NCBI GenBank assembly: GCA_021413705.1
Contig: JAIOPX010000105.1
Coordinates: 1-64,000, forward strand
Origin: Planctomycetota bacterium
GTDB lineage: Bacteria > Planctomycetota > Planctomycetia > Pirellulales > UBA7805
DNA: 64,000 nucleotides
Direction of reading: 5' to 3'
The position numbers were made by a program, and so were the translations under genes. Of this stretch, positions 26,421 through 59,912 are shown piece after piece. How positions within the stretch are numbered: position 1 is the stretch's first letter; every line of letters begins with the position of its first letter. Under the pieces are notes generated by a model. The model searched no databases, had not been told where the DNA came from, and was given only the letters and a program-made list of their open reading frames with translations.

Positions 26421-26499
26421 GGGTGCGCGTTATTGGCCTCTCGTTGACATTTTGCTACACTCGGTTGTTTGCTTCCTGTCCAAAAAATGGAGAACTACC

Positions 26500-26841: not shown

Positions 26842-26847
26842 TTAAAT

Positions 26848-26955: not shown

Positions 26956-26962
26956 TTCGTGC

Positions 26963-27514: not shown

Positions 27515-27858
27515 GGTTTTTCCTTCCGTCGAGTGCGGGCTTTCCAATGAGTGCCGTAAGTTCCCCATTACACCCAGATAATTGGGGCAGCGAGTCTCGG
27601 GGTCAAGGTTCACGGATTGAGAGGCCTGTTCCCCAGGGAATCAGTCAGCCAGTGAAGACGCCTATTTTACAAACTATTTTGTTGGCCACAACTCTGTACA
27701 CCTGAATGCTTTAGGCGATTGGCCAAAGAATTTCGAAAATTACGGAGTGTCGCTTTGTCTGTCAGGGACGTTATCTAGTTGACATTGCGCCTTACAATCG
27801 TGACGCGGATGCAGGATTTGTGGACGGCACGCTTGTGACAGGTAAGAACGAGCCAGCG
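27515..27858. other. divergent intergenic region before the sigma-factor gene
   Basis: This 344-bp gap separates the stress protein and the ECF sigma gene. A TTGACA at 27779-27784 has no good -10 hexamer 16-18 nt downstream, while TACAAT at 27793 pairs only with a weak TTATCT at 27771. I see no RNA gene or repeat in it. Confidence 0.3.
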
Positions 27859-28404: not shown

Positions 28405-28446
28405 CCCCGGGCTCCGCCCAGGAGCCTGCCCGGAGCCGCCATCACC

Positions 28447-30177
28447 ATGAACAACAACCCCACGACCCACGACGCGGACAGCAACCAGGGCCGATTCTGG
28501 TATCTGATCGACGCCGCCATCAGCGGCAGCCTGGCTGACGCCGAGTTGCGTGAATTGGAAGCGTTGCTGTTGGCTGACCACAATTTGCGTCAACAGTATC
28601 TCGAATATGCGCAGCTGCACTACGAGTTGGAGTTCTTGCACTTGGCGCAGCAAGCGGTCGAAGCGGTCAGGAGTCAGGGGTCAGGAGTCAGGGGTCAGGA
28701 ATCAGGGGTCAGGGGTCAGGGGTCAGAGGCAGGGGCAGGAATCAGGGGGCAGAGCCAGAAGAGAGATTTGCGTCGAGTGCTGCGGGTCGTGCTCGCCTTG
28801 GCGCTTTCGCTGCTGGTCCTGGTCGGAGTGGCGGGCTTTGCGATCTGGGGACGTGTTGGGCGTGAGCAGCCGTCCGTCGTCCAAGCGCCGGCGGCCATCG
28901 TAGCCACGCTGGTCCGCGACAATGGCGCCCAGTGGGATCCGGCATTTGCTCCGGCGGGAAAGGACTTAACTGCCGCGCAACGGCTGAAACTCACCAGTGG
29001 CCTGGTGGAGATTGCTTTTGTAAGCCAGGCCAGGATTATTCTCGAAGGCCCCGCGGACCTCACGGTAGGTCAGCTCAAATCCGAAGACCGAACTCGCAAA
29101 TCCGGCATCGAGAACTCCTGTTTCCTCGCTTCTGGAATGCTGACCGCCTTCATTCCAGCGGCAGCGCACGGATTTACGGTACACACTTCCCATGGCACGG
29201 CGACCGACCTTGGAACAGAGTTTGGCGTCCTTGTAAAGTCGGAAGTCGGAAATCGGAGGTCGGATAGTGAAAAGCCGACCTCCGACCCCCGATCTCCGAC
29301 CTCGACAGAAGTTCACGTCTTCCGAGGACGCGTCGAAGTCGCTGAAGGATATAATCTCCCTCCCTCAGAAATCAAAAGTCATCAATCAGAAATTCTCACC
29401 TCGGGCCAAGCCGTGATGATCGACCACTCCGGCTTGGAACGCCTGCCGGCCGCCGATGCGTTTCGGTTTCGAACTGATGTTTTCGAGGGCCAGTCACGGC
29501 AGTTGTTGTTGACGGAAGATTTTGAGTCGATGAACGTCGGCGATAGCGGCCATTCGATCGGTCCTTGGAGAGCTGCATATATCGCGGATCCTCACCAAGT
29601 GATACGTGTCGTCGATCCCAGCACGGCCGCCGCTGGCCTCTCCCCCGTGCTTCCCTCCACCAGCCACCGAGCAATGGAGTTCGCCAACACCGGCAAAGTG
29701 ATTGGCAAACAGCGGCGACAACTCAATGCGATCTTGTCGCGCGATCTCGATTCGAACCAGCTTCCCGCGAGGGGCAAATTGCTGCTGGAATGCGACATCT
29801 CGCCACGGACGTCAATCGTTGAGCCGTCGATCTCCATCACGGCGGACCATCCGCTCCGCCTGTCGCCCGGTTTGGCGCTTTCGGAAGAGGCTGACCCGGC
29901 TGCGGAGAAAATCCCGTGGGAGACCGACCACTGGTACCGGCTCCGCGTCGTGTGGGACTTGGATGGCGGCGCACCGCGCGGCGCGACCGTCGAGCGGTTT
30001 AAGTGGCGAGCTTCTGGCGGCTGGATGCGCGACTTATCGGTCCAACTCCCCGCGCCGAAGCTCGTCGACGCTCCGCTGGGCCAAGTGTGCTTCGGCTTCC
30101 CCGCGCCGATCATGGGCAAAGCAGGGGGCAGGTTCTGGCTGGACAATGTGCGCATTGAGGTGATCGCCGAGAAGTGA
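28447..30177 (+). CDS. FecR-like transmembrane regulator (putative anti-sigma partner)
   Basis: The 576-residue protein has a cytosolic anti-sigma-like N-terminus (WYLIDAAISGSLADAELRELEALL, QQYLEYAQLHYELEF), one membrane helix (VLRVVLALALSLLVLVGVAGFAIW) and a periplasmic FecR domain (LKLTSGLVEIAF, TVHTSHGTATDLGTEFGV, TEVHVFRGRVEV, LTSGQAVMI). A C-terminal beta-rich region resembles concanavalin-like folds. Two repeat-derived insertions are translated in frame: Gly/Ser/Gln units before the helix and Ser/Pro/Arg units within the FecR domain. Together with the sigma gene it should transmit a surface signal. Confidence 0.8.
   Translation: MNNNPTTHDADSNQGRFWYLIDAAISGSLADAELRELEALLLADHNLRQQYLEYAQLHYELEFLHLAQQAVEAVRSQGSGVRGQESGVRGQGSEAGAGIRGQSQKRDLRRVLRVVLALALSLLVLVGVAGFAIWGRVGREQPSVVQAPAAIVATLVRDNGAQWDPAFAPAGKDLTAAQRLKLTSGLVEIAFVSQARIILEGPADLTVGQLKSEDRTRKSGIENSCFLASGMLTAFIPAAAHGFTVHTSHGTATDLGTEFGVLVKSEVGNRRSDSEKPTSDPRSPTSTEVHVFRGRVEVAEGYNLPPSEIKSHQSEILTSGQAVMIDHSGLERLPAADAFRFRTDVFEGQSRQLLLTEDFESMNVGDSGHSIGPWRAAYIADPHQVIRVVDPSTAAAGLSPVLPSTSHRAMEFANTGKVIGKQRRQLNAILSRDLDSNQLPARGKLLLECDISPRTSIVEPSISITADHPLRLSPGLALSEEADPAAEKIPWETDHWYRLRVVWDLDGGAPRGATVERFKWRASGGWMRDLSVQLPAPKLVDAPLGQVCFGFPAPIMGKAGGRFWLDNVRIEVIAEK
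28666..28752. repeat. tandem GTCAGGG/GTCAGGA repeat inside the FecR-like gene
   Basis: About ten 7-8-bp units of the form (G)GTCAGGR run without spacers. They encode alternating SGVRGQE-like residues between the anti-sigma-like region and the membrane helix. Confidence 0.9.
29236..29304. repeat. AAGTCGG / CCGACCTC simple inverted repeat inside the FecR domain
   Basis: Units of RRTCGGA on one side and TCCGACC on the other form a long imperfect palindrome translated as a Ser/Arg/Pro-rich insert between two conserved FecR strands. Confidence 0.8.
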
Positions 30178-44859: not shown

Positions 44860-47187
44860 TCAGTAGTTTTTGAAGTAGTACTGAGCCACCTTCTGAGCAA
44901 TCGCTTGCCAACGAGTATCGCCCGTTGACTGGGCGCTGCAACTGAAAGTGGTAACGGCGTATTGCCAGTTGACGTTCTTAATGGTGCCGCTTGGCCCGGT
45001 CTCAACGCCGGTTCGAGTATTGCCGTCCGTCGAAATGAGTCCGCTGGAAAGAACTCGCGATTGTTCCCAGGCCAGCCCCTTGCTCAGCATGGTTTTGACT
45101 GCCGACGTCGTAACATCGTTGGGGAAGTAGGTGGCCCACAATTGAGCGTAGGTAAGGCCGACCGCTTGGTAACTACTGTCATATCCGCCTGCTTCAGGAT
45201 TCACTCCATTGGTCCATTGCCATGAAACGCCCTCTTTGATCTGAGATCGCGCCAGGCTCGACAAGAGAGTATTGCCTCCCACCAGCCGACTCGTTAATCC
45301 CATTGCCGTGGCAACCAGGTAGCGACGGTGCGTATACGGACTGTTGTTGGAAATACCTCGGCTCCACACCTCCGGCCGGGCCATCCAGAGCGCCGCCTTG
45401 TAGATTCGGTTTTTATAGATGTCGATCTTGGCTTGATACTGATCGGCATAGGGAGATTGTTTGAGCAGGAGACAGGACCGGGCCACGGCCTGAACAAAAA
45501 ACGAGGTGCTGTGAAATGGGTCTTGAGTGCCTGTGAAACTGCCGTCGGCCGCCTGTTGTTTGAAACCCCAATCGAAAGCCTTGAGGCCAGCCGCTATCTT
45601 CGCTGGATCGTTGTGGAGGAGTCCGTCGATGATCAGGCACTCTCCGTATCGCTGTTGCTCAATATACCACTTGGAGGATGTGCCCTGCTCCCACTTGGCA
45701 TTCACTCCCCAAGCTCCGCTAGAAACCATCTCGTCCCAGGTCAAATCACCGTAGACGGTGTTCGCCAGGAGGTTTGCGGACAGAAGTTGGAGATCATTGA
45801 GCGAGCTCGCCGAAGTTGCCGCGGAAATCTTGGCAGTGGTCTTCGAGATCAGGGAATCGCCGTTCCTTCCCGTGACCTTCAGTGTGACGGTATAGGTTCC
45901 CGGGGCAGCATATTTGTGGCTCGTCGTGGCACCGGAAGCCGTGCCGCCATCCCCAAAATTCCAAGCGTAAGTGAACCCGGCATTGGAATCGAGCATCCCA
46001 TTGTCGCGGGCCAAGGCGGCAAAGGATACGGACTTGCCAGCGGCCCCTTGGTAGGGACCAAGAATGTTCACGCGCAACGGCGAGTCCACGGCCGTGATCG
46101 TGACGGCGCTGGTCAAGCTTTTAGCGCCATCCTTGTCGGCGACGGTCAGCCTGGCGACATACGTCCCCTCGTCGTCCGGCTTGAAAGTGAACTTTGTTGA
46201 ACCGCCGGTTGAGGAGGCAAACGGACTTCCATTTTTGGTGACCGACCAGGATGCCTGAAACCCGGCGGTGACGTCGGCCGCGCTGGGGTCGCTCACGCTG
46301 CTCGACAAGGTAATGCTGGATCCCTCGCTGATTTCTCCGACAGGAGCGCCTTTGAGGCCGATGCGCGGCGCCACGTTCTTCACGATGACGGTCGAGACGG
46401 CCCGGCCAACTCGGCCCTGGGAATCTGTTGCGGTCAACGTGACAAGATAGGCGCCATCGTCGGCATATCGATGTTTCGTGACTAAGGTTCCTGTGGCAGT
46501 TTTACCGTCTCCAAAATCCCACACATACGATAAGCCTGTCGGATCGATAGCCGATCCTTTGAAGGTCAACTCGGAACCTTCGGAGCCAACTTGATCAGGG
46601 CTGATGGCGACGCTCGGCGCCTGTGAGGTCGTGCTCACGACATCCAGGGCACTGATCGCCCAACGCACGGTGACCCCCCCGCGATCTACGAGCCTCATCG
46701 CCAGCTTGCCATCGGTCACTTCCACGCGGTACGTGGGACGGTAAGGGCGCCCCGCTTCAACGGTGATGTTGGAGGCCACCTGCTTGCCATTGAGATAGAT
46801 ATCCATGTGGTCCCGCAACATTGCGTTATCCCCCATGGTGGGAGTCACCAGATAGTCGCCGTTGGGAAGGTCCAAGCGAAAGGTACGGTCTTTCCCGGCG
46901 TGTAAATCGCTCGTCAGCGAGGTTCCGCTGCTGCGAAGGACTTCCCGCACGCTGCTCGGGTCTGTCCAGCCGTATCCAGTCGCCAGGCTGTAGCGGGTTA
47001 CGGGGACGCTCACATAACCGCTACCCACCGAGGACGAACTGGTACCGAAATCGAGATGGTATGCCGCCATCATCCTCCGCGGCTCCAACTCATCCAACTG
47101 GAGCCGCTGTGAAAATGGGCGATTTCGGGGGCGCAGCGGTTTGCGACACCTCTTGAGAAGCTGAAAGATGCCAGTAAGCCAAGCCAC
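44860..47187 (-). CDS. secreted PKD-domain protein with C-terminal helical toroid-like region
   Basis: The N-terminus has a basic stretch and LDELEPRRMMAA, the LEPR-type export signal of planctomycetes. A malectin/CBM-like domain follows (YHLDFGTSSSSVGSGYVSV, DIYLNGKQV), then three PKD-like domains (YVWDFGDGKT, a middle one with DEGTYVARLTV, and YAWNFGDGGT). About 300 residues of paired helices come last (WYIEQQRYGECLIIDGLL, SPYTHRRYLVATAMGL), suggesting an alpha/alpha toroid of the polysaccharide-lyase/hydrolase type. Catalytic residues cannot be assigned. It is divergent from a glycan-assembly gene run, so it may act on that glycan. Confidence 0.75.
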   Translation of the reverse strand: MAWLTGIFQLLKRCRKPLRPRNRPFSQRLQLDELEPRRMMAAYHLDFGTSSSSVGSGYVSVPVTRYSLATGYGWTDPSSVREVLRSSGTSLTSDLHAGKDRTFRLDLPNGDYLVTPTMGDNAMLRDHMDIYLNGKQVASNITVEAGRPYRPTYRVEVTDGKLAMRLVDRGGVTVRWAISALDVVSTTSQAPSVAISPDQVGSEGSELTFKGSAIDPTGLSYVWDFGDGKTATGTLVTKHRYADDGAYLVTLTATDSQGRVGRAVSTVIVKNVAPRIGLKGAPVGEISEGSSITLSSSVSDPSAADVTAGFQASWSVTKNGSPFASSTGGSTKFTFKPDDEGTYVARLTVADKDGAKSLTSAVTITAVDSPLRVNILGPYQGAAGKSVSFAALARDNGMLDSNAGFTYAWNFGDGGTASGATTSHKYAAPGTYTVTLKVTGRNGDSLISKTTAKISAATSASSLNDLQLLSANLLANTVYGDLTWDEMVSSGAWGVNAKWEQGTSSKWYIEQQRYGECLIIDGLLHNDPAKIAAGLKAFDWGFKQQAADGSFTGTQDPFHSTSFFVQAVARSCLLLKQSPYADQYQAKIDIYKNRIYKAALWMARPEVWSRGISNNSPYTHRRYLVATAMGLTSRLVGGNTLLSSLARSQIKEGVSWQWTNGVNPEAGGYDSSYQAVGLTYAQLWATYFPNDVTTSAVKTMLSKGLAWEQSRVLSSGLISTDGNTRTGVETGPSGTIKNVNWQYAVTTFSCSAQSTGDTRWQAIAQKVAQYYFKNY

Positions 47188-47860
47188 AGTGACAGAATCC
47201 TCGCGAAATAGGTTGAAAGTCGCGGTGAGCCCACTGGAGGTGCGTCAGCAAGGATGAGAACTCGGGGGAGCCAATCGGCAAGTTTGCAGATTTCGCTGCG
47301 ACCAAGGAGAAGTGAATCGGTGCGATAGCGCTGAGAGAAGTACGACCTGAGTTCGCCGAGCCCGTTTCGGCGGGGGCGAAGTGTAGGGAGGAGCATCTGG
47401 AAATCGCAAGAGCAACTGCACGCTCCAAACCGAGCGCCAGCAGGGACGGTCTCCCCGACTTTTTGGGGGCATTAGCGCGCACGCAAGCACGAGACATCGA
47501 GACAGCACGGCATCCATTGATGCGTGTATGACTATGCTCCACTCTGTACGATTTGCGTCACGATGATTGAACAGTGAATGAAGATTGTCAGTGATTTACG
47601 CTGCAGCGTGAGTCCGAAAATCAGCGGCACACCTTGCCCAGTCGTAACGCAGAGGTTGCTGCCAATACTAGCTGTGATGTGAAACACATCAGCGAACGAG
47701 TGACGTTTTGGAAACCGAACCGGTTTCTCGGAGATCAATTCCTGCAACAAGAAAAGAAAAATTTTGTGGATTTGTTGATGTTACGACAGTTGGCATGTAA
47801 TTCGCCTTGCAGGGTGGACCAATCCCGCAAGGGGGCTGCACTCAACGGAACGGAAAATCC
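47188..47860. other. large divergent regulatory region between the PKD protein and the glycan cluster
   Basis: This 670-bp spacer has no convincing ORF. The tracked minus-strand frames at 47090-47542 show no conserved features, and three frames overlap over the same bases. It holds the sigma-54-like site at 47790. AT content rises sharply after about 47680, as expected for a promoter region. I see no repeats of the families found elsewhere. Confidence 0.35.
47790..47806 (+). promoter_or_regulatory. sigma-54-like -24/-12 site before the glycan cluster
   Basis: TTGGCATG-TAAT-TCGCC has GG and GC exactly 12 nt apart and differs from the TTGGCACG-N4-TTGCW consensus at three positions. The predicted start of transcription would be near 47817, about 44 nt before ATG 47861. 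Single-site matches can be chance. Confidence 0.35.
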
Positions 47861-48922
47861 ATGACTCCTCCATCAGTCTTATCGCCAGCGCCGAAAGCAT
47901 CGCCTGTCGCTGTCAGTGCTACGCAACAGGGAAAGAGAGAGTTCGATGCAATTCGTCGTCGGACCGATGACGCCCCAGTCGTCAGCAGGATGTTGAGTTT
48001 TGTGATCCCCATCAAGGATGAGCAAGACTCGATTGTGGACCTCTACTGCCTGATCGAACGCGAGGTCGAAGCCAACTCCGCGTTTGAGGTGATCTTCGTG
48101 GACGATGGCAGCCGCGACGGCTCCTGGGAGATGATCTCGGAGCTGGCTCTGGCCAAGCCGGACCATGTGCGGGGAATTCGGTTTCGCCGCAATGCCGGAA
48201 AAGCGGCTGCTTTGAGCGCCGGTTTTCAGTCGGCCCGGGGGAGCGTCGTGTTCACGCTCGACGGCGATCTTCAGGACGATCCTCACGAAATTCGCCGCTT
48301 TTTAGCCAAGTTGGACGAGGGCTACGACCTCGTCTCTGGCTGGAAAAAAGTGCGCCACGACCCCTGGCACAAGGTCTGGCCAAGCCGCGTTTTCAACCGC
48401 ATGATCAGCCACCTCGGCGGGGTTCCGTTGCACGACCACAACTGTGGATTCAAGTGCTACCGGGCGGAAGTGGCCAAGAATTTGGCGGTCTACGGCGATT
48501 TGCACCGGATGATACCCAGCCTCGCCGCCATGCAGGGATATCGTTCGACAGAAATCGAGGTTTTGCACCATCCGCGACTCCATGGCACCAGTAAATACGG
48601 TGTCGGCCGGTTTCTGCGCGGATTTTTTGACATGCTCACGATCTATTTCTTGCGGCATTTCAGCGAACGCCCTGCACATTTCTGTGGGGGGGTGGGAGCC
48701 GTCATGCTGCTTATGGGAATTATTTTGTTTTGCGGTGTGCCACTGGCGGGAGCGGAATCGCCCCGCCTGGCAGCCGTGGGAATGGGAGCGGCGCTGCTCG
48801 CCGCCACTCCCGTCATCTGGACCTTGGGTTTTATCGCGGAACTTCTCAATAGGAGCACGTTGCACCGGCAACGAAAGCTGCCGATCTGCGAAGACACCGA
48901 TGAGCCCATTTCGTCCATCTGA
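47861..48922 (+). CDS. family 2 glycosyltransferase, polyprenyl-phosphate sugar synthase type
   Basis: The catalytic domain (FVIPIKDEQDSI, FEVIFVDDGSRDGSWEMI, GIRFRRNAGKAAALSAGFQSARG, TLDGDLQDDP, DHNCGFKCYRAEV) is of the DPM1/GtrB type that makes polyprenyl-phosphate sugars. Two C-terminal membrane helices follow (VGAVMLLMGIILFCG, LAATPVIWTLGFIAELL). It could supply the lipid-linked donor needed by the GT39-like enzyme encoded 5 kb downstream. ATG 47861 gives 353 residues; the tracked start at 47807 is a TTG inside the promoter zone. First gene of the plus-strand cluster. Confidence 0.9.
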   Translation: MTPPSVLSPAPKASPVAVSATQQGKREFDAIRRRTDDAPVVSRMLSFVIPIKDEQDSIVDLYCLIEREVEANSAFEVIFVDDGSRDGSWEMISELALAKPDHVRGIRFRRNAGKAAALSAGFQSARGSVVFTLDGDLQDDPHEIRRFLAKLDEGYDLVSGWKKVRHDPWHKVWPSRVFNRMISHLGGVPLHDHNCGFKCYRAEVAKNLAVYGDLHRMIPSLAAMQGYRSTEIEVLHHPRLHGTSKYGVGRFLRGFFDMLTIYFLRHFSERPAHFCGGVGAVMLLMGIILFCGVPLAGAESPRLAAVGMGAALLAATPVIWTLGFIAELLNRSTLHRQRKLPICEDTDEPISSI

Positions 48923-48957: not shown

Positions 48958-50328
48958 ATGTATTCTCCTGTTGGAAGCACTCAGGCTGTTCGTTCGCTGC
49001 GCATTTTGGTCATCGCCTCCACTTATCCGCGCCACGAGGATGACTACGCAGTACCCTGGCTACGCACCTCGGTTCAACACCTGGTCGAGCGAGGTCATCG
49101 GGTGTCGGTGTTGGCGCCATCCTATAAGGGACTTGGCAGTCACCAGATTGATGGAGTGATGGTCCACCGTTTCAGGTATGGCCCGGCGTGTTGGGAGCAG
49201 TTGACCCACGAAGAAGGTGCGCCGAGCCGGATTCGCAATCATCCTCTCTACCAATTGATGGGACTGCCGTATGTTTGCCTGGGTTTGCGGGCCGGGTTTC
49301 GCCTTGCTCGCCGAGAACCCTTCGACATCGTCCACGTTCACTGGCCGTTTCCTCACGGCCCGATCGGACTTGCGGCTGCCCGCGCATGCGGGGCCAAAGT
49401 AGTCATGACCTGCCACGGGGCAGAGTTCGCGATGGCCCGCCGAAAGCGTTGGACGCGCCCGCTGCTGCGACACTCGTTGCGGCGTGCCGATCTTCTCTTG
49501 GCCAATAGCACAGACACGGCCAAGCATATCGAGAGTCTAAGCGGATGCAAGGCGGCTGTTCTCCCCTTTGGATCGACGGTCGCAGCGGCTCCGATTCTCC
49601 CGCCTGAGAATGAAACGCCAGCCCTCGTCGCATCCGAGCACCGGATCTCGCGAGTTCTCTTCACGGGACGGTTGATCCAGCGCAAAGGGGTGGAATATCT
49701 TCTCCGAGCTGTCCCGTTGATACTGGCCCGGCGACAGGCCGAGTTCATCATTACCGGCGACGGTGATCAACGGGCGAGCTTGGAGTCTCTTTCCCACGCG
49801 CTGCACTTGGACGACTCCGTGCGATTTCTGGGGTTCGTCACCAACAAACAACTCGAAGCCCAATATGCGAGGTGCGATGTCTGGGTTAATCCATCCATTA
49901 TCGACGACAACGGCGATACCGAAGGCTTGGGAGTGGGAGCCATCGAAGCGTATGCTCACCGCAAACCGGTGGTGGCTTCGGCCGTAGGCGGAATCCCAGA
50001 TGCGGTCCGGCACGGGATCACCGGGCTCTTGGTTCGCGAGAAAGACTCGCGCCAGTTGGCAGATGCGATCGTCACGATTCTGGACGATCCCGAGCGTGCG
50101 ACGCAGATGGCGGACGCAGGTTTTCGGTTTGCGCAAGAAACTTTCGACTGGTCCAACCTGACGCGACGGTTGGAAGATATGTATTACGAAACGCTCGCAG
50201 AAAAGCAGCCTGCCGAGCGGCCTGTGCGTTCGCGTTTTTCTCTGTTACGCAAGCCGTTTCTCTATCCCTCATCGCGGGGCAATCTGGCTTGTGAAACGTC
50301 CGAAACCCTAGAGGCCATCGACCCATGA
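48958..50328 (+). CDS. family 4 glycosyltransferase
   Basis: This GT-B fold retaining glycosyltransferase of 456 residues is probably cytosolic and uses a nucleotide sugar. The N-domain has RILVIASTYPRHEDDYAVPWL and DIVHVHWPFPHGPIGLAAA. The C-domain has VLFTGRLIQRKGVEYLLRAVPLI, FIITGDGDQ and the donor-site DTEGLGVGAIEAYAHRKPVVASAVGGIP. Sugar specificity cannot be told. Its last four bases overlap the start of the next gene (ATGA), so translation is coupled. Confidence 0.9.
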   Translation: MYSPVGSTQAVRSLRILVIASTYPRHEDDYAVPWLRTSVQHLVERGHRVSVLAPSYKGLGSHQIDGVMVHRFRYGPACWEQLTHEEGAPSRIRNHPLYQLMGLPYVCLGLRAGFRLARREPFDIVHVHWPFPHGPIGLAAARACGAKVVMTCHGAEFAMARRKRWTRPLLRHSLRRADLLLANSTDTAKHIESLSGCKAAVLPFGSTVAAAPILPPENETPALVASEHRISRVLFTGRLIQRKGVEYLLRAVPLILARRQAEFIITGDGDQRASLESLSHALHLDDSVRFLGFVTNKQLEAQYARCDVWVNPSIIDDNGDTEGLGVGAIEAYAHRKPVVASAVGGIPDAVRHGITGLLVREKDSRQLADAIVTILDDPERATQMADAGFRFAQETFDWSNLTRRLEDMYYETLAEKQPAERPVRSRFSLLRKPFLYPSSRGNLACETSETLEAIDP

Positions 50329-51347
50329 AGCCACAACACGCGCGCATCGTGAAAATAGCAACTGCAGTCGCCATTGTTGCCAGTGTCGCGGTATTTTTGC
50401 TGCCGGCAGCGATGACGCTGATGGAGCAGTTATCGGGGCGTTTTGCCGACTTCCGCTGGATGTCGCTGGGAATTGCTATTGGGTTAGCTCTTATCTACTG
50501 GCCGGCCAGCGCCTACGGCTGGAACTTGGTACTAGGGGCGCTTGGCCATGCATTGCCGACGCGAACGGCCATTCGCATCTGGGTTTCGACTCAAACCTGC
50601 CGTTGGTTGCCTGGCGGGGTGTGGCATTACAGTTCTCGCACGTTGCAGGCCATCAGTCAGGGAGTGCCTTCCACGGTGGCCGTGGCCAGCATGGGGCTGG
50701 AACTGCTCCTGACGATTGCCGCCTGGGGAGTCGTCGGCGTGATGGGAATGGCCTGGTATGGCAACCGTCAGTTTCAGGTGGAACGAATCTTTTCGGCAGG
50801 AACGATCGAGGTCATTCTCTCGGGCGTCCTGTTGCTGATTCTGTTTGGCGCAGCCGTTTGGCTCTCCGCGCGCTGGTTTCCTCAGAAGCTACTGGCCATG
50901 AGAGAACGATTGGTCTCGCTTCGAGCCGTCAGGCCGCGGGCGATTCCCACGATAATGAGCTTCCTGGTGTACATCGCACTCGCGATGCTCAACGGCCTGA
51001 CCTTTTATGCGGTCATCGATGCGGTATCTCCGGACCATCACGTTCCTTTATTGGCCGCTATCTCCATCAATGCACTGGCCTGGGTCGTGGGGCTTCTGGC
51101 CATCATGGCGCCGGGGGGACTCGTCGTGCGCGAAGCGGCCCTGGCATTGCAGTTGGGCTTGTGGATGCCCCCTGCGGAGGCCGTTTTGATCGCCGTGTTG
51201 TGGCGGCTGGTGCAAATGGCAGTGGAAGTGGTGTGTGTTACCGGCTCCTACGTTCCCCAATCCTTGGGAGCGCGGCTTGCACGTCGTCTTAGGCCAGCCG
51301 AGCCGTGGAATGGTCTTTCAACACTTGAAACCAAGTCAACCAAGTAA
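50325..51347 (+). CDS. UPF0104/LPG-synthase-TM-like membrane protein
   Basis: A 340-residue polytopic protein with eight or so helices resembles the transmembrane (flippase) part of lysylphosphatidylglycerol synthases and UPF0104 proteins: RIWVSTQTCRWLPGGVWHY, NALAWVVGLLAIMAPGGLVVREAALALQLG. In glycan clusters such proteins are often found next to glycosyltransferases and may move or modify lipid-linked intermediates. It overlaps the GT4 gene by 4 nt. No Wzx or ABC exporter is present in the cluster, so it is a candidate for that step (inference). Confidence 0.8.
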   Translation: MKPQHARIVKIATAVAIVASVAVFLLPAAMTLMEQLSGRFADFRWMSLGIAIGLALIYWPASAYGWNLVLGALGHALPTRTAIRIWVSTQTCRWLPGGVWHYSSRTLQAISQGVPSTVAVASMGLELLLTIAAWGVVGVMGMAWYGNRQFQVERIFSAGTIEVILSGVLLLILFGAAVWLSARWFPQKLLAMRERLVSLRAVRPRAIPTIMSFLVYIALAMLNGLTFYAVIDAVSPDHHVPLLAAISINALAWVVGLLAIMAPGGLVVREAALALQLGLWMPPAEAVLIAVLWRLVQMAVEVVCVTGSYVPQSLGARLARRLRPAEPWNGLSTLETKSTK

Positions 51348-51372
51348 CTTTGAGATGTGACAGGTGAAAACA

Positions 51373-52935
51373 ATGGTACCCCTTCAAAGCAACGATGACA
51401 GTGACTCCAAGAGCGCAGCCACGAAGGCGCGGAATCAATTGACGAATCGAGGCTGGGGAATCCTGCCGCTCCGCAATCACGCGGGAACCATGGTGGTGGT
51501 CTTCTTCACCCTGGCTGCGTCCGCTGCGATTGTCTGGTATGTCGTGCGGCCAACCTACATGCACCCCAGTAATCGCACCTATACCTCGGGAATGGGATAC
51601 CCAGCCATCTTGCGAGCGCAGGGAAAACCCTTTCCCGTGACAACCGGACACGCGACCGAGCGAGTGCTCAATCACCAGTTTCTGGGAGAAGGTATCATCG
51701 AGACGGAACCAGTGCGCGTGCCCATCGTGCCTGAGGGGCGTGTCGCCCGCGTGCTCGTCGAGGAGGGAGATCACGTTAAGCGAGGGCAGGTTCTGGCGGA
51801 ACTCGATACTTCGGTTCAGGAGAGCAAGATTGCCGAAGCCAAGAACGCCATTGATGCGGCAGCAGTCCAGGTAGAACGCGCACGGGTTGGTTCTGTATAC
51901 GGAATGCAGATGGAACGCCCCGAGATCGTGCGTGCTCAACTGGAACTGGCAAAAAAGCAGGTCAAGATTACCAGTCAACTCGTGGAAGCCTATGGCAAAT
52001 TGCAGAAGCAGAACGTCATTTCCGCCGAAGCGATGCTGCAACAGGAGCTTGCCGCCAATCAGGCTTTGGCAACGCTAAGCGAGGCGGAGCAGAACACCAA
52101 GATCTCGCAGGCCGGACGCCCCTTGAGCGTGCAGGCGGCAGAACTGGCTTTGCAAGAAGCTCGCTTGAAGCACAAAGTCTACACCCGTGAATTGGAGGAT
52201 TTCAAGATTCGCGCGATCGCCGATGGCATGGTAGCTCAGGTGCTGATTCACGAAGGTGAATACAACCGCAACATCGGAACCTCGGCCTTCGTGTTGGCTG
52301 TGGGACAATGGTTCGGCGGCAATTTCGACCAGACCACCATGGGCCGCTTTCCCGAGGGAGCCCCTGTACACGTCCGGCTGGAAGCCTTTCCCGGCAGGGT
52401 GTTTGAAGGTCGAGTTCGCAAAGTGAAGCCGATGGTCACCTATAACTCTGGCGGGCCTGAAGCTGCTCGACCGATTCGTCCTATGGGAACCGGCTCGCCC
52501 GAATGGCCCGCCACATTCACCACGCGGATCGAACTGGTCGCCGGGAGTGAGTTGCCAGGTATTGTCCCCGGCCTGACAGGATTTGCTGAAGTCAAAGTGG
52601 AGCGGCGCGGCACGGCCGTGCCCGATGGCAGCCTGACCTCGGTTGCAGCGGGGCGGGCGATTGCCTATGTGGTGGAAGGAGATAAGTTTCACGCGCAGCA
52701 AGTCGCGATTGCCCAGGCATCCGACGGCTGGATTGAGATTTTGTCCGGTCTGACGCCCGGCACTGAAATCATCGTCGACGGACACCAGATCCTTCGCCCC
52801 GGAGACCGCATTCTTGGTACACCTGCCAAGAGCGCATCGTCTCCGGCAAATGAGAAGATTGCTCGCCCTGCTGAGCAGCCCAATAAGGTTGCTCAGGGAA
52901 TTGAAGTTGTTACTCCAACACTGATGGGCAGGTAA
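51373..52935 (+). CDS. HlyD/RND-type membrane-fusion adaptor protein
   Basis: The 520-residue protein has one N-terminal membrane helix (TMVVVFFTLAASAAIVWYVV). A biotinyl-lipoyl half (GRVARVLVEEGDHVKRGQVLAELDTS) is followed by a long coiled-coil hairpin (residues 150-260, rich in Ala/Glu/Gln), the second lipoyl half (FKIRAIADGMVAQVLIHEGEY) and beta-barrel domains ending DGHQILRPGDRIL. Such adaptors connect inner-membrane pumps to an outer-membrane channel. No pump or channel gene is adjacent, which is unusual. ATG 51373 follows AGGTGA; GTG 51364 is the alternative. Confidence 0.88.
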   Translation: MVPLQSNDDSDSKSAATKARNQLTNRGWGILPLRNHAGTMVVVFFTLAASAAIVWYVVRPTYMHPSNRTYTSGMGYPAILRAQGKPFPVTTGHATERVLNHQFLGEGIIETEPVRVPIVPEGRVARVLVEEGDHVKRGQVLAELDTSVQESKIAEAKNAIDAAAVQVERARVGSVYGMQMERPEIVRAQLELAKKQVKITSQLVEAYGKLQKQNVISAEAMLQQELAANQALATLSEAEQNTKISQAGRPLSVQAAELALQEARLKHKVYTRELEDFKIRAIADGMVAQVLIHEGEYNRNIGTSAFVLAVGQWFGGNFDQTTMGRFPEGAPVHVRLEAFPGRVFEGRVRKVKPMVTYNSGGPEAARPIRPMGTGSPEWPATFTTRIELVAGSELPGIVPGLTGFAEVKVERRGTAVPDGSLTSVAAGRAIAYVVEGDKFHAQQVAIAQASDGWIEILSGLTPGTEIIVDGHQILRPGDRILGTPAKSASSPANEKIARPAEQPNKVAQGIEVVTPTLMGR

Positions 52936-52940: not shown

Positions 52941-53825
52941 ATGCGCCGCTTATTGATCCAACTGTTGGCGATTGCCGGCGTGGCCGTCAGTGTGCTGAGT
53001 TGTGGACTGATGTGGTTTGCCATTCCGGTCGGTGCTGAACCGATGTTTGCATCGCCGGAAGCAATTCACACCGATCAGCCGCAGTTCACCATGACCTATC
53101 GCCTGGTCACGGTCGTCGCGTTGGCAATCATTGTCATTTGTTGGGCACTGGGAAAAGCCGGTTCATGGGGTCTGCTGGCAACCTGCCTGTGGCTCTCGGC
53201 ACTGCTCACCTTTCCCTACGCCGTCATGAATTGGGAGCCTAGGATCGCCGGCGATGCGGCCTGGCTCGAAGCTCAACACCGCAATCTGATTTGGTCTGGC
53301 GGCGATTTGAACATGAGTCTCGGTCACCGCATTGACGGTGTGATGGACAAGATCCTGCTGACCCAGACGCCGCGGAGCGTCAATCCCGTGGAGGTTAGCG
53401 AATGGCAGCCCAGTGAGTTGACTTTGGCGCGGTTGCCTAACTTGGTGGATCGACTCGGCTACTCCAACAAGTTTTTCGAATTCATTCGTCCTGGCTGGGT
53501 TGCCGCGCTGGCAGGAAGCATTCTGATTCTGGTGGCCATCGGGGCTCCTGTTGGCCATCTCGACATAGGGCGCTTCGTGAGGATGTCTGGCATCCTCTCG
53601 GCATCCATTCTTCTACTTGCCCTGGCCGCCTGGTGCTGGTCCTTTGCTGCGGCGTCGGACCTCACAGTAGCGGCCAATAGCACTGCCCGGGGTGACTATG
53701 AGATGGCTTTGGATGCCATGCAACGCGCGAAAGACAAACTTCCCTCGCTGGCAGAAGATAGCTATTTCATTGCTCAGCAGGGACTGCTGGAAGATGCATT
53801 AGGCAGGCGGACTGCCGCGGGCTGA
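52941..53825 (+). CDS. membrane protein, N-terminal part (frameshifted)
   Basis: The 294-residue frame encodes about five membrane helices (LLIQLLAIAGVAVSVLSCGLMWF, VTVVALAIIVICWALGKA, WVAALAGSILILVAIGAPVG and ASILLLALAAWCWSFAAA). A TPR-like start follows (GDYEMALDAMQRAKDKLPSLAEDSYFIAQQGLLEDALG) and then TGA. The TPR pattern continues at once in the +1 frame (53845-54210), so the two ORFs are most likely one gene broken near 53805-53825. It starts 5 bp after the adaptor gene. Role in the cluster unknown. Confidence 0.75.
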   Translation: MRRLLIQLLAIAGVAVSVLSCGLMWFAIPVGAEPMFASPEAIHTDQPQFTMTYRLVTVVALAIIVICWALGKAGSWGLLATCLWLSALLTFPYAVMNWEPRIAGDAAWLEAQHRNLIWSGGDLNMSLGHRIDGVMDKILLTQTPRSVNPVEVSEWQPSELTLARLPNLVDRLGYSNKFFEFIRPGWVAALAGSILILVAIGAPVGHLDIGRFVRMSGILSASILLLALAAWCWSFAAASDLTVAANSTARGDYEMALDAMQRAKDKLPSLAEDSYFIAQQGLLEDALGRRTAAG

Positions 53826-53844
53826 TGTTGCCTACGAGCGCCTC

Positions 53845-54210
53845 GTGGACGATGCCGAAACCCCGGCCGCTATTCGCCGTGAGGCCTGCCGAGCGATGCT
53901 CCGTTCGGCCATCGACGCGCTCAATGCCGGACGAACCAATGCGGCTGCGGAACTCTTGGAAAAGGTGCTAGCTACCGAGCCGTGCAATCTTAAGGCGAAC
54001 TACGCGCTGCAACTTGCCTGTCTGCGAGCGGGGCGCTATCAAGAGGTTCCTCAATTGGCTCTCCGGCTGGAAGCAGTTTATCGCTCTTTTCAATTTCCTT
54101 CCAAGTTGGCGGTTGTTTCCGCGTCTTATCAAAACGCCGTAGTGGCTGATGCCGCCGAGGGAAACACCAAGCTCGCCGTGGCCCACGGACGAAAGGTGGC
54201 AAAACCTTGA
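53845..54210 (+). CDS. TPR-like C-terminal part of the preceding gene
   Basis: The frame is open from just after the upstream TGA (encoding DVAYERLVDDAE) and carries helical repeats: MLRSAIDALNAGRTNAAAELLEKVLATEPCNLKANYALQLACLRAGRYQEV. GTG 53845 has no ribosome site. Continuation of the upstream helical repeat makes a single-nucleotide or two-nucleotide indel the simplest explanation. Its TGA overlaps the TTG start of the next gene (TTGA), indicating coupling. Confidence 0.65.
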   Translation: MDDAETPAAIRREACRAMLRSAIDALNAGRTNAAAELLEKVLATEPCNLKANYALQLACLRAGRYQEVPQLALRLEAVYRSFQFPSKLAVVSASYQNAVVADAAEGNTKLAVAHGRKVAKP

Positions 54211-57200
54211 AAATCTGGCGACTCCAAACTGTTACCCAGGGTGCAGAGCCGCTGGCCATCCAGCGAACGCTCCTGCCGGACGCTGCCGATGTGCAAACTC
54301 CCCAGCAGCGCACTGCAGATGGTTTAAAGACCAAGCTGCGAAAAACGAGTCGCCTGCCGGAAGCTCCCTCGCTTCGGCGTGCGTTGCCTCCCGATGAGAA
54401 GGCGCCATTATCGGACGACTCACAGCCTACTGCGCAACCTGGGGCGAGTCCTCCGCGAAGCAGGTGGCGGTTGCCGATCACTCCCAGGCAGACGATCGTC
54501 ATGGCGGGATTGATCGCAGCTGCGGCCTTCTGTGGAACCTATGCGGTGGCCAAGTGGAGAGAGTTCAGCGGTGAACCCGTGCGCCCCTACAGCGAGATGA
54601 AGGGCCAGTGGATTCAAGCGACTTCCGCCTCGGGCATGGACGTCTACACCGGCGTTTTTCGGCGCGAGCTCCGTCTCCCGGGCCATGTGCGCAATGCTTG
54701 GATTGCCGTGGCTGCTCGCGATGGGTTTGAAGTGACGGTGAACGGCCGGGCCATCGGGTGGCAGCACATGTGGCGACCCACGCGGCCTTTTCAAACGGGA
54801 CTGAGCGAGCGCGGGCAATGGTTGGAGTGGCCCAAAGTGGCTCTCTCGCTTAACTTCGCGAGGGAGTATCAATGGACGGATCATCAAAATTATCTCCTGC
54901 CCGTGTTTATCGATCTGTCTCCGTATCTTCACGTTGGAAAAAATGTGGTAGGCGTGAGCGTCGAATCCCGCCAGGCTCCGGCCAAGGTTCGCTTTGACGG
55001 CGCCGTTACGTTATTCAGCGGAGAAACGATTTCACTCGCCAGCGGCGTCGATTGGAAGGCGGAGGTCATTCCCCCGTATTATCAGAACATCGAATGGTGG
55101 AGCACCAACTACGCGGCGCTCAACTGGCGGCAGGCTGCGCTAACAGACGCGCCTCCCGGCCAGTCGCTCCGCGCGTTTCATCCGGGTTTGTTTTCCACGC
55201 CGTTTCGTGGCAATTGGATCCGCCATCCGCAAGCCAATGCCCAGGACTCAGTTTGGTTCCAGTGCGATTGGCAGATTGATCGACAGCCTGACGAGGCATG
55301 GTTGCGGCTGGCTGCGAATCGCAATTTCGAGCTCTACGTCAACGGCCGGCGGGGCTATCCCCAAACCCCGGACGACCATGGCCAAGACACGGGAGAATGG
55401 ATCTACGGCCATAAGAGGACGGGCGACCAGTGGCTCGACCCGGAGCAGATGTTTTCCCATGACGTGGGTGACGAGTTTATCGCCCATCAATACATCGGTC
55501 CGCCGAAGGAGCCGCTCGGTGTCGATAAGCATCAGTTTAAAACAATCGCCGACGACGCGACGCGTAAGAGCAAACTCCCTGACCCCAATTGGGCCATCGA
55601 AACGCGAACTCCGCTGATGCTGCGGCATGATGCTTCGGTAGGCGCTTATGTCGGTTACAACTTAACCGGCATGCTCCGCCAAGGCGCGAACACCATTGAG
55701 GTGCGACTGAACCGCCCTGCTACGGCAGATCCTGTCAATTGGCTTGGCCAGATTGCCGCGGACGGGGAAGTTACTTTTCGCGACGGTACTCGTCAGCCCC
55801 TGATCTCCGATGGCACCTGGAAATCCCGTAAGTCGGGCTCGAACTCGCTGCCGCCGGAACTGGTGGACGCGCAGCAGATAGGGCCGGCGCAGCAATCGGA
55901 TCAGCGACTGTCGAAGCTACAGTATCGCGGCTCTCCAACGCACATCGATTTCTTTCCCTCCTGGGTTGGCGTGGCCGGAGCAACGACGGGAGCAGGGTTG
56001 CTGGCTTTCACCGGTTTACTGTTCCTTGGAACAGCATGGCCCAGCCGGAAGTCGCAAACTGTAGTAACACCATCGCAGTCGATTGTGAGCCAAGGGATGA
56101 ACGTCGTTGGCGATGCGCTCTTGGCGTTTACCGCCGTCCTCGCTGGCGCCATAATCGTGCAAGCGGCGTTCGGCGAGCGCAGCGAACAAATGTGGTTTAT
56201 GCTGCCGACAACCTGGCAGTGGTGCATCGTTGCGGCAGTGGCTCTGGGCGTGCTGGCGGCCGTTGTGCGAGTGGCGCGACTGACCGGGAGTAGATATCTC
56301 AGCACCTCTCCGGCCATCGCGGGACAATGGCTCCGCGACCTTCCCAACACCCGCCTCTGGACGATTGCGGTAATCGCTTTCTGCCTGTTGACATTCTTCA
56401 CGCGGGCCTACCGCCAGGAGTTCCAGCCACTGGATTACGATGAAAATCCGTCGCTGCTGGCTCTGCAATCGGTGGCCCGCACTGGTATTCCCAGCTATGT
56501 GCCTGAAGCCGTCTGGTACACGCGCAGCCCTCTGTATCACTACATCACCGGCGCCTTCGTGTGGCTGCTAGGTGAGAACCTCTGGGCGGCACGGCTGCCG
56601 ACCGTTCTGTTCAGCGTCGCCACGGCTCTGCTGCTGTACATGTGCGGATCTCGCTTGCTGAAGCGTCCTTGGATCGGGATGGCGGCAATGATTCTCACGC
56701 TCATTCATCCGCAGATGTTCATGACCGGACACATGATCCGGTTTTATCAGCAACAACAATTCTTCGGCTTGTTGACCGCCTACTTTTTCTGCAAGGGGTT
56801 TGTGACAGACCAATCGCAAGGGTACCGCTACCTCACGGTCGTGGGATTCTTGGCAGCCACTTTAAGCCAAGAGATTACAGCCGTCTTAGCTGTGCCGCTG
56901 GCCGTTGGCTATTTGTTTTTCGCGGGTCAAAAAACCATCGCCGAGAATATCAAGTTGATAGTGGGAGCGGGATGTGCGCTGCTGGTCATCGTCATTGACT
57001 ATCTGTTGTATGCAACACACACGATGACCCGCCTGGAGGGCTTTTCAACCACGATGCAAGCCGACATCGGCCCCCATCTTTGGGATCCGTACAATCTAGT
57101 GACGGTCTTTCTGAGTTATTCGCGAATTCATCTGCCATTGACGTTCATGTTCCTGCTTGGCTTGCCAGCAGCTCTGTGGGAACGCAATCGCGTGGTGTTT

Positions 57201-58004
57201 GCCCTCCACATGCTTCTCTTCGGCAATATCATCATGCTCAACCTCATGGTCACGCAGGTGAGCGTTCGCTATGTGTATTGGCTCTTTCCCTTGCTGATGC
57301 TGCTGGCGTTGGACAACGGCCGCGCAGGACTTGCCTGGCTGATTGGCGCCATTCGGGGACAACATCGGCGATTGGCAGTCTCCGGTTTACAGCAGAAGAA
57401 TCACACTGCCTCCCTGCAGCTCAGCAGCCGAGTATGGGGCTTGGAGCGAATCGTCCCAGGGCGGCAGAACTTTGCCTCTATGACATGTTGGAGCGTCTTG
57501 TTTGTCGCGACGATCGTTTCCTGGTCGCCGTGGCGATTGCCGGGCACCTACAGCACGAAGCTTCTGGCCGATTCCAACGGAGCATTTCAATACATTCAAA
57601 GCCAACTTCGTCCGGGTGATTTGATCGTAGTGACTCAGCCGCATGCCAAAGGCGCGCTGATGGAAATTGGTCGCGTGAACTACGAACTGCACATACCCAT
57701 GGTTTACGACTTTGTGTTGCGACAGGACGGTCGATTGGTGGAGCGCGGCGCTGGGGCCGGAGTGATTTATTCCGTCGAGCAGTTTCAGAAACTATGTGCG
57801 GAGCACGAGCGGGTATGGATCGCTATTGATCGCGAACAATATCCGTTCCGTGGAGAGCGGATACGCTTTGCCCATGCGGGCGCGCGGATGGAACTCTTCC
57901 TGCGCAAGAACACCGAGGTCATGCATCGGACGCACATGTGGAATGTTTATCTTTGGGACACCAATCGGGGACTGTATCGCTCGTTCCGAAAGAATGGAAC
58001 TTGA
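54207..58004 (+). CDS. GT39-like membrane glycosyltransferase with N-terminal beta-sandwich regions
   Basis: A 1265-residue protein. A polar N-terminus and one membrane helix (about 98-115) lead to about 450 residues of beta-sandwich resembling the sugar-binding domains of GH2/rhamnosidase-type enzymes (AWIAVAARDGFEVTVNGRAIG, WLRLAANRNFELYVNGRRG, GYNLTGMLRQGANTIEVRLN). The second half is a GT-C enzyme of the GT39/ArnT type: LDYDENPSLLALQ for the acidic first loop, YTRSPLYHYITGAF, then about ten helices. It would transfer a sugar from a polyprenyl carrier outside the membrane. The start TTG overlaps the upstream stop. The domain combination is unusual. Confidence 0.8.
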   Translation: MKIWRLQTVTQGAEPLAIQRTLLPDAADVQTPQQRTADGLKTKLRKTSRLPEAPSLRRALPPDEKAPLSDDSQPTAQPGASPPRSRWRLPITPRQTIVMAGLIAAAAFCGTYAVAKWREFSGEPVRPYSEMKGQWIQATSASGMDVYTGVFRRELRLPGHVRNAWIAVAARDGFEVTVNGRAIGWQHMWRPTRPFQTGLSERGQWLEWPKVALSLNFAREYQWTDHQNYLLPVFIDLSPYLHVGKNVVGVSVESRQAPAKVRFDGAVTLFSGETISLASGVDWKAEVIPPYYQNIEWWSTNYAALNWRQAALTDAPPGQSLRAFHPGLFSTPFRGNWIRHPQANAQDSVWFQCDWQIDRQPDEAWLRLAANRNFELYVNGRRGYPQTPDDHGQDTGEWIYGHKRTGDQWLDPEQMFSHDVGDEFIAHQYIGPPKEPLGVDKHQFKTIADDATRKSKLPDPNWAIETRTPLMLRHDASVGAYVGYNLTGMLRQGANTIEVRLNRPATADPVNWLGQIAADGEVTFRDGTRQPLISDGTWKSRKSGSNSLPPELVDAQQIGPAQQSDQRLSKLQYRGSPTHIDFFPSWVGVAGATTGAGLLAFTGLLFLGTAWPSRKSQTVVTPSQSIVSQGMNVVGDALLAFTAVLAGAIIVQAAFGERSEQMWFMLPTTWQWCIVAAVALGVLAAVVRVARLTGSRYLSTSPAIAGQWLRDLPNTRLWTIAVIAFCLLTFFTRAYRQEFQPLDYDENPSLLALQSVARTGIPSYVPEAVWYTRSPLYHYITGAFVWLLGENLWAARLPTVLFSVATALLLYMCGSRLLKRPWIGMAAMILTLIHPQMFMTGHMIRFYQQQQFFGLLTAYFFCKGFVTDQSQGYRYLTVVGFLAATLSQEITAVLAVPLAVGYLFFAGQKTIAENIKLIVGAGCALLVIVIDYLLYATHTMTRLEGFSTTMQADIGPHLWDPYNLVTVFLSYSRIHLPLTFMFLLGLPAALWERNRVVFALHMLLFGNIIMLNLMVTQVSVRYVYWLFPLLMLLALDNGRAGLAWLIGAIRGQHRRLAVSGLQQKNHTASLQLSSRVWGLERIVPGRQNFASMTCWSVLFVATIVSWSPWRLPGTYSTKLLADSNGAFQYIQSQLRPGDLIVVTQPHAKGALMEIGRVNYELHIPMVYDFVLRQDGRLVERGAGAGVIYSVEQFQKLCAEHERVWIAIDREQYPFRGERIRFAHAGARMELFLRKNTEVMHRTHMWNVYLWDTNRGLYRSFRKNGT

Positions 58005-58022: not shown

Positions 58023-59912
58023 ATGGGCGGCCGGCTTTTCATCCTGGTAATGATAACGTCTGTACTGGCGGCATGGCCGGCGCTGGTAACGGCTCAATCG
58101 CCGCGAGACACCGTCCGCCTGGCAGAACTCGATCGCCAGCAGCGGCTCTGGGCTAATCTGGCAGAGTCGGACCCCAGCGAAGAAGTTGGCTGCCGCGAGA
58201 TCATGGGTCATGCGTTGGCGTTGGCCGAAGCCCGGCAAAATCCTGAGTGGCTGGGAAGGCTGTTTGAATTGTTGGCGCGGATGCAGGACCGCGATCGCCA
58301 AAGCAAGACCTTCGGCAATCTCAGATGGCGTTGGGGGGATACGGAAGTCAACGATCTGAACGCCGTGGAGTTTTGCTTGCACGATGCGCTGTTGCTCTGG
58401 AAAAGACATCGCGACTGGATTCCCGCGGAAGTCCGACCGCAAGTATCAATGTTCATTCGATACGCGATGGAAGGAGTTCGGCGGCATCGCGTCGCAGCGA
58501 CGTACACGAACATCGCCCTGACGCGCACCGCCAATTTGATCATCGTGGGTGAGGTGCTGCGCCGCCGGGATGTTGCGGAAGAGGGAGAGCAGCGGCTGGA
58601 TGAGCTGGTAAGCTGGACGGCAGCGCACGGCATCCGAGAATGTGTCAGTCCAACCTACTACGGGGTAGATATCAATGCCCTGATGCTCATTGCCACGTTG
58701 AGCGAGAGCGATCGTGTCCGGCGTCAGGCGGACGCGCTATTGAAGCTATTCTGGACCGATATTGCGCTCAACTGGTTTCCGCCGTCCGAGCGGCTGGGGG
58801 GAGCCAACAGCCGAACCTATGACTATCTCGCCGGTCGTGGCGCACTGGACTGGCATCTGTGGTCGAACGATTGGTTTCACTCGCCGACGCCTGGAAAATC
58901 CCATCGCGTCGAACCCTATTGGCATGAGTGGACTCCCCCGGCCGAGCTTCACGCCATGAGCTTGCAGCGCGTGCCGCGGCTGGTTCGTCAAAGCTGGGGC
59001 GACCGCTTGGGACAGTCGCGAACGTACATGCTCTACCGCGACATCGCCCTCTCCACGCTCAGCGCCGGCTATGGTCCCGAGGACGTTCCGCTCGCCATCG
59101 ACATCCTTGGGCCGCGCGGAACGCCGCGGGCATTCTTCCGCGCCGATGACCGACAGAATCCCTATGGAATGAAGAAGCACGCCAGCGGCCCGGGCGGCCA
59201 GATGAAAGCTACCCACCCAACGCCTTTCTGGATCGGCGCGCAGCGTTCCAGCGACGCATTAGTGATGGCCATCTACGATTCGAAAGCGGACAGCTTGGAG
59301 GAGCTTCAGAGCCACCTCGTCCTCCCCCGCAAGGCGCAGTCGATCACGATCGGCGGCGATCCGGTGGATATGTCCCTAGACGGAAACAAGAAGCGTTCCG
59401 TCCTTCCCGGCCAGGCAATTGTACTTCGTTACGGCACGGCGGCCGTGGGGCTGCGAGTGCTGACCGCCGCTACCCGACAGGGGCGCACAGCATCTCTAGC
59501 CCTGATTGACGACGACAATTCCTATAACTGCATTCGACTTACGGCCGAGCATGGTGCAGGCGAGCCGCTGCGCGAGATAAAGACTGGCGCTGCTGACGCC
59601 AACATCGCGCTCTGGGTGCGTGTGGGTACGAATCTCGCTGACGAAGCTTCGTTCCAAGCATGGCGCAAGATGTTTGAAGACTCACAACCGACGCGGATCG
59701 CGATCACTGCCGAAGGGGTCGCACTTGAAGTGCCGGGCCTTGAAGGCGCGGTAGCACTTTCGGCCAGATTCAACTCAGAGGGGCAGGCATCCGCAGACCG
59801 CATTATCCCTGAGCCTAGCCGCAGTGTGCTGGAACTCGACGGCCAGGACGTGGGCCGCACCCTGTTGGATGCGGCCATCGACTCACAAGCTCATCCCTCC
59901 AAATCCCCATGA
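58023..59912 (+). CDS. secreted helical-toroid/beta-sandwich protein (polysaccharide-lyase-like)
   Basis: This 629-residue exported protein has a signal ending LVTAQS. Residues 40-300 are helical with conserved aromatics and charged pairs (NALMLIATLSESDRVRRQADALL, EWTPPAELHAMSLQRVP). The C-terminal half is beta-rich (HLVLPRKAQSITIGGDP, QAIVLRYGTAAVGLRVL). That plan fits alpha/alpha-toroid plus beta-sandwich polysaccharide lyases such as heparinase II/III relatives, but I cannot point to the catalytic residues. It lies directly after the GT39-like gene and may trim or modify the cluster's glycan outside the cell. Confidence 0.65.
   Translation: MGGRLFILVMITSVLAAWPALVTAQSPRDTVRLAELDRQQRLWANLAESDPSEEVGCREIMGHALALAEARQNPEWLGRLFELLARMQDRDRQSKTFGNLRWRWGDTEVNDLNAVEFCLHDALLLWKRHRDWIPAEVRPQVSMFIRYAMEGVRRHRVAATYTNIALTRTANLIIVGEVLRRRDVAEEGEQRLDELVSWTAAHGIRECVSPTYYGVDINALMLIATLSESDRVRRQADALLKLFWTDIALNWFPPSERLGGANSRTYDYLAGRGALDWHLWSNDWFHSPTPGKSHRVEPYWHEWTPPAELHAMSLQRVPRLVRQSWGDRLGQSRTYMLYRDIALSTLSAGYGPEDVPLAIDILGPRGTPRAFFRADDRQNPYGMKKHASGPGGQMKATHPTPFWIGAQRSSDALVMAIYDSKADSLEELQSHLVLPRKAQSITIGGDPVDMSLDGNKKRSVLPGQAIVLRYGTAAVGLRVLTAATRQGRTASLALIDDDNSYNCIRLTAEHGAGEPLREIKTGAADANIALWVRVGTNLADEASFQAWRKMFEDSQPTRIAITAEGVALEVPGLEGAVALSARFNSEGQASADRIIPEPSRSVLELDGQDVGRTLLDAAIDSQAHPSKSP

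Follow-up and report, generated by a model that had tools for sequence, protein, structure and literature searches.

A GT-C glycosyltransferase fused to predicted rhamnosidase-type β-sandwiches in a conserved operon of Planctomycetota and Verrucomicrobiota

The window analysed here, positions 1–64,000 of contig JAIOPX010000105.1 from a Planctomycetota bacterium (assembly GCA_021413705.1), contains a gene at 54207–58004 (+) whose product joins two β-sandwich domains to a GT-C-type glycosyltransferase (GT) core. From its N terminus, the 1265-residue protein comprises a cytoplasmic tail (residues 1–92, longer than in most relatives), helix 1, sandwich 1, sandwich 2, three further helices, the GT-C core and a C-terminal domain. 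The features of the gene, with the evidence for each in brackets, are:

54207–58004 (+): GT-C enzyme with N-terminal tandem β-sandwiches (1265 residues, single continuous open frame)
54483–54572 (+): first transmembrane helix, residues 93–122, N terminus inside (hydropathy peak at 97–115, model helix, preceding positive charges)
54603–55067 (+): β-sandwich 1, residues 133–287, predicted GH78/CBM67-like fold (profile, model, Foldseek)
54762–54902 (+): insert in sandwich 1, residues 186–232 (family consensus WRPTRPFQxGLSExGQ ... LNFPREYQWxxH; low confidence in the models)
55212–55886 (+): β-sandwich 2, residues 336–560, containing the Bac_rhamnosid_N match (Pfam, model, Foldseek)
55938–56285 (+): three helices joining the sandwiches to the GT-C core, residues 578–693 (hydropathy, model, charges)
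56352–57521 (+): GT-C transmembrane core (PMT_2), predicted ArnT-like fold, residues 716–1105 (Pfam, model, Foldseek)
56433–56444 (+): acidic motif of the first outer loop, residues 743–746, here DYDE (D743, D745 and E746 near-invariant in the family)
56739–56765 (+): RFYQQQQFF, residues 845–853, a near-invariant GT-C motif of the enzyme family (family conservation)
57522–58001 (+): soluble C-terminal domain, residues 1106–1265 (conservation equal to that of the core)

The start codon, TTG, runs into the stop codon of the preceding gene (TTGA). Relatives (loci L010–L014, L054, L073 and L074) show this four-base overlap too at the corresponding position, which supports the TTG start and suggests translational coupling with the preceding gene. 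Architecture, fold and sidedness of the enzyme were computed. Counted across the family, positive charges exceed negative ones in three segments, namely ahead of helix 1 and in the helix 2–3 and helix 4–5 connections; the helix 3–4 connection shows no such excess. From this distribution, the sandwiches and the catalytic loop are predicted to share the outer face of the membrane.

Both sandwiches are predicted, by profile and by modelled structure, to adopt the fold of α-L-rhamnosidases of glycoside hydrolase family GH78. Within sandwich 2, where a long insert (residues 383–475) lies between the strands, Bac_rhamnosid_N matches residues 480–544 (4.7e-6), exceeding its curated Pfam cut-off. A family profile of the sandwich region matches the GH78 rhamnosidases 3w5m (6.7e-12) and 6i60 (1.4e-9) in the PDB, as well as a Pleurotus lectin (3e-4); the profile was required, as phmmer with the single enzyme protein gave no useful match against the PDB. 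An AlphaFold model of residues 118–600 has a mean predicted local distance difference test score (pLDDT) of 68.8; most of the strand cores score higher than 80 and two inserts lower than 50. Its Foldseek matches include SaRha78A (1.5e-19), the Pleurotus lectin (~1e-15) and further GH78 and GH2 enzymes. The global template modelling (TM) scores of this model are low, reaching 0.28 by query at most, which is expected because the relative placement of the domains and the long inserts are not fixed; the fold call is based instead on the Foldseek E-values together with the independent profile match. In a model of residues 88–1265 (predicted TM score 0.78), Foldseek again assigns rhamnosidases to the sandwiches. 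The GH78-type sandwich that defines the fold of carbohydrate-binding module (CBM) family 67 is thus present in the models.

The core belongs with PMT_2, which matches residues 773–929 (2.4e-13; 51.1 bits against a curated cut-off of 26.1) and 18 of 20 family members at E ≤ 1. Pfam PMT (PF02366) matches five of the 20 weakly, with 7.6e-5 as the best value; PMT_2 is preferred, and PF02366 not being the best family, membership of GT39 was rejected. In the Foldseek search with the longer model, the core is matched by ArnT (1.8e-9; TM 0.60 by target) and also by OST/PglB, ALG9 and Pmt4. By predicted fold, the nearest GT-C relative is ArnT, not a GT39 enzyme. In the model the core has a GT-C fold, and its first outer loop carries the acidic residues D743, D745 and E746, a motif that, from what is known of GT-C enzymes, is likely to be catalytic. 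NCBIfam holds no model for the enzyme. The dedicated Pfam domains of EmbA/B/C and of AftD are not among the matches up to E = 1, and the protein lacks the C-terminal immunoglobulin-type CBM of GT136, its sandwiches being N-terminal and of GH78 type. Elsewhere in the source genome, contig C404 has a 20-kb stretch (8954–28838) in which at least eight PMT_2 GT-C genes, with open frames of ~620–760 codons, share one strand.

An earlier, sequence-only reading of this DNA had proposed a GT39-like enzyme fused in one frame to rhamnosidase- or GH2-like β-sandwiches on its outer face, quoting the motifs VTVNGRAIG, LYVNGRRG and ANTIEVRLN. All three motifs are present, the frame is uninterrupted with Pfam matches to both parts, and the charge distribution agrees with the sidedness. 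The reading was to fall if structure prediction gave no jelly-roll; the predicted structure has rhamnosidase-type sandwiches. 'GT39-like' proved too specific, given the PMT matches in a minority of members and ArnT as the nearest solved fold.

Scans of genome contigs and whole-genome searches found the full-length fusion, with both parts in one frame, in at least 15 further genomes (one locus, L011, is cut at a contig end). Its carriers are Planctomycetota of several orders, Verrucomicrobiota, a metagenome-assembled genome (MAG) labelled Cloacimonadota and one unassigned bacterium. The fusion is rare: counting the genome on which each search was centred, it occurs in 4 of 98 relatives, in 4 of the 388 genomes drawn from Verrucomicrobiota and in 4 of 45 from the family to which an Isosphaeraceae MAG belongs, and three genomes in a draw of 392 from the phylum have an enzyme match at E < 1e-50. 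Every complete family member among the open reading frames (ORFs) of the fetched loci has both the sandwich and the GT-C parts; the sole other match of the sandwich profile among these ORFs is in L027 (1.8e-11). Weak matches to the enzyme in the whole-genome searches are mostly GT-C proteins without sandwiches. The source genome is a fragmented MAG (457 contigs, 6% contamination) and the TPR gene adjacent to the enzyme gene is broken, as would fit a join created by assembly or annotation, a concern that the sequence-only reading had itself raised. The present data refute this explanation because the same architecture recurs in independent assemblies, several of the genes sitting on contigs of 2–10 Mb. 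Trees of the N- and C-terminal parts have 10 of 13 splits in common. Given this recurrence and the largely congruent trees of the two halves, the join is, on the sequences compared, an old fusion.

The enzyme gene is the last of a conserved operon, which the sequence-only reading had missed, and the gene order GT2–GT4–flippase–HlyD–TPR–GT-C is kept across two phyla. In the window and its relatives an HlyD gene precedes the TPR gene, and flippase-like, GT4 and ArnC-like GT2 genes usually accompany them. In the window, the preceding genes are:

47807–48922 (+): GT2, ArnC/PgfS-like, probable polyprenyl-phosphate-sugar synthase (NF007986 at 5.4e-43, below the equivalog cut-off; Pfam)
48958–50328 (+): GT4 glycosyltransferase (Pfam)
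50325–51347 (+): membrane protein of the LPG_synthase_TM family, putatively flippase-like (PF03706, 5.5e-17)
51364–52935 (+): HlyD/RND-type periplasmic adaptor (Pfam, NCBIfam, locus comparison)
52941–54210 (+): membrane and TPR protein, here split into 52941–53825 and 53845–54210 (in relatives one ORF of ~440 residues)

Operon conservation and the co-occurrence of enzyme and TPR protein were likewise computed. Among the 18 loci whose flanks are readable, 16 have the TPR gene directly upstream of the enzyme gene; in the other two (L068 and L069) it lies within ~15 kb. All seven enzyme-bearing genomes searched for the TPR protein have it, and in the draw of 392 genomes from the phylum the three with a strict match to the enzyme are also the three with a strict match to the TPR protein. 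In the window, the frame of the TPR gene changes near 53817, where ~16 residues are also missing relative to L009, from the same genus; the split may be a real mutation or an assembly error. The conserved part of the operon holds no partner transporter for the HlyD adaptor. Genes of the UDP-glucose/GDP-mannose dehydrogenase family adjoin the enzyme gene in L013, L068 and L069, and because a UDP-glucose dehydrogenase-family gene stands beside the cluster in some lineages, the product may contain uronic acid.

Other neighbours recur as well. Large DUF4114 proteins adjoin the GT-C gene in two distant lineages (L014:10822–13527 and L068:7947–11801); an acceptor or a surface partner is a possible role for them. 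On the other strand of the window, 44860–47187 (−) encodes a secreted-type protein with PKD repeats, relatives of which lie near the enzyme gene in L009, L015, L068 and L069. In two phyla, counterparts of its C-terminal part, in which the motifs HSTSFF and YTHRR are conserved, are found close to the operon (L015:12379–13485, L068:5627–7120 and L069:7485–8792). For this part, profile searches gave no PDB relatives and Pfam gave accessory domains only (PKD and the like); the protein is possibly a glycan-degrading enzyme. Directly downstream of the enzyme gene, 58023–59912 encodes a 629-residue protein with a counterpart in L009 (58% identity) and with no match in Pfam, NCBIfam or, by profile, the PDB.

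The gene set is likely to build or decorate a secreted sugar polymer. By analogy with ArnT and with three-component systems (PMC11127046), we infer the type of donor, the nature of the acceptor, glycan binding and a scaffold or export role, as follows. The ArnC-like GT2 of the operon, which lends indirect support to the use of a polyprenyl-phosphate-sugar donor by the enzyme, would make that donor, which would be turned outward by the flippase-like protein or by another flippase whose gene lies elsewhere. On the periplasmic side of the inner membrane, the GT-C core would then move the sugar onto an acceptor glycan, which the two sandwiches, anchored on the same face by their own helix, would keep close to the active site. 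A periplasmic scaffold formed by the HlyD adaptor and the membrane-TPR protein would link this transfer to the export of a polysaccharide, either secreted or displayed on the cell surface. We judge the chances of this whole scheme, with its periplasmic transferase dependent on polyprenyl-phosphate sugar, its acceptor-holding sandwiches and its coupling to export, to be about even.

The binding of an acceptor glycan by the sandwiches, as the sequence-only reading had suggested, is plausible by analogy: the CBM of the GT136 enzyme ORF12 binds its acceptor polysaccharide, and the CBMs of EmbC and AftD interact with theirs (PMC11127046). Several observations weigh against the proposal. CBM67-type lectins bind sugar through a Ca2+ held by two Asp residues (PMC11512411), and SaRha78A has Asp-Asn at the place aligned with this pair; the Asp-Asn or Asp-Asp Ca2+/sugar pair is absent at the aligned position from both sandwiches in all family members, and a sugar, if bound, would have to sit elsewhere. 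The insert at residues 186–232 is modelled with low confidence and may meet a glycan, the active site or a partner protein. The CBM of GT136 was dispensable under the conditions tested (PMC11127046). At the level of the operon, the window has a broken TPR gene, the flippase-like gene is not beside the enzyme gene in L012, L073, L074 and L054, and dehydrogenase neighbours are limited to three loci.

The same insert bears on an alternative that we consider unlikely, in which the sandwiches are a protein–protein docking module for the HlyD adaptor and the TPR protein, with the insert as docking face. No part of the sandwich region is more conserved than this insert, whose mean divergence score of 0.64 (0.46–0.56 elsewhere) is similar to that of the GT-C core; it is strongly conserved although it stands outside the core fold, while the CBM67 ligand residues are lost from both domains. 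Docking would also fit the TPR and HlyD genes being near-obligate neighbours. The insert is, however, enriched in Trp, Arg, Glu, Gln and His, residues common in sugar contacts, and the closest structural relatives of the sandwiches all come from carbohydrate-active enzymes or lectins. Distinctly unlikely, in our view, is a polymerase that builds a chain on the outer face from polyprenyl-phosphate sugars, in the way that EmbC makes arabinan, the HlyD and TPR proteins serving as export conduit. The conserved operon encodes no other polymerase or export permease, and EmbC is itself a CBM-bearing GT-C enzyme, mutants of whose CBM yield less and shorter arabinan (PMC11127046); but initiation or assembly of the chain could fall to the GT4, a polymerase could be encoded elsewhere, and Pfam shows no sequence relation to the Emb proteins. 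At its fullest, and with similarly small likelihood, this would be a new class of polysaccharide machine: on the outer face of the membrane, a GT-C enzyme with built-in glycan-holding domains would polymerise lipid-phosphate sugars, and the HlyD and membrane-TPR proteins, directly coupled to it, would convey the chain through the envelope, with no ABC transporter, Wzy/Wzx pair or cytoplasmic synthase taking part. We think it very unlikely that the enzyme is a PMT-like protein O-glycosyltransferase whose sandwiches recognise a secreted protein such as the DUF4114 neighbours. The PMT_2 and PMT matches and the adjacency of DUF4114 genes in L014 and L068 would agree with it, but such neighbours occur in these two loci only, PMT_2 spans lipid and glycan transferases besides protein ones, and ArnT, the nearest fold, is a lipid A glycosyltransferase.

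If the proposed transferase with its acceptor-holding sandwiches is correct, a widespread enzyme fold tied to a conserved operon of Planctomycetota and Verrucomicrobiota offers a concrete gene set for studying the synthesis or modification of surface glycans in these bacteria, and represents another independent recruitment of a carbohydrate-binding fold to a GT-C enzyme. In the open literature searched we found no description of this enzyme family or operon; by that measure, the tandem N-terminal GH78-type sandwiches and the tight operon link to HlyD and TPR genes in these two phyla are new. GT-C enzymes with carbohydrate-binding domains are already known, among them EmbA/B/C, AftD and GT136 (PMC11127046), and eukaryotic PMTs carry a MIR domain (PMC7759382). 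The sequence-only reading had taken large extracytoplasmic domains on GT-C enzymes to be unusual; that view, like the GT39 label, does not hold, and fusion, fold and topology do.

Among known systems, ArnT (GT83; PDB 5ezm and 5f15) resembles the enzyme in the predicted fold of its GT-C core, in its outer-face active site and in the ArnC-type GT2, here in the enzyme's operon, as expected for a polyprenyl-phosphate sugar donor. Unlike the enzyme, ArnT has neither β-sandwiches nor the extra linking helices and acts on lipid A, and the two share 15% identity. EmbA/B/C, AftD and the GT136 protein ORF12 (PMC11127046) likewise combine a GT-C core with extracytoplasmic domains of carbohydrate-binding type, although no Emb or AftD Pfam domain is found here. 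The CBM of GT136 is C-terminal and immunoglobulin-like, in contrast to the N-terminal tandem of GH78-type sandwiches with HlyD and TPR partners. GT136 systems encode a lipid-phosphate donor synthase and a flippase alongside the GT-C enzyme; here the GT2 is of ArnC rather than phosphoribosyl type, and the flippase-like protein, whose gene is absent beside the enzyme in some loci, is of the LPG_synthase_TM family rather than MATE. The non-catalytic domains of GH78 enzymes, CBM67 (as in SaRha78A) and the Pleurotus ostreatus lectin share the predicted sandwich fold, the lectin also the tandem of two such domains; the enzyme differs in lacking the (α/α)6 catalytic barrel and the Ca2+-binding Asp pair, in its family-specific inserts and in its membrane anchor. 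Eukaryotic PMTs (GT39), finally, are GT-C enzymes bearing a large lumenal β domain, but that domain is the MIR β-trefoil (PMC7759382), and the Pfam PMT model matches the present family weakly and in a minority of its members.

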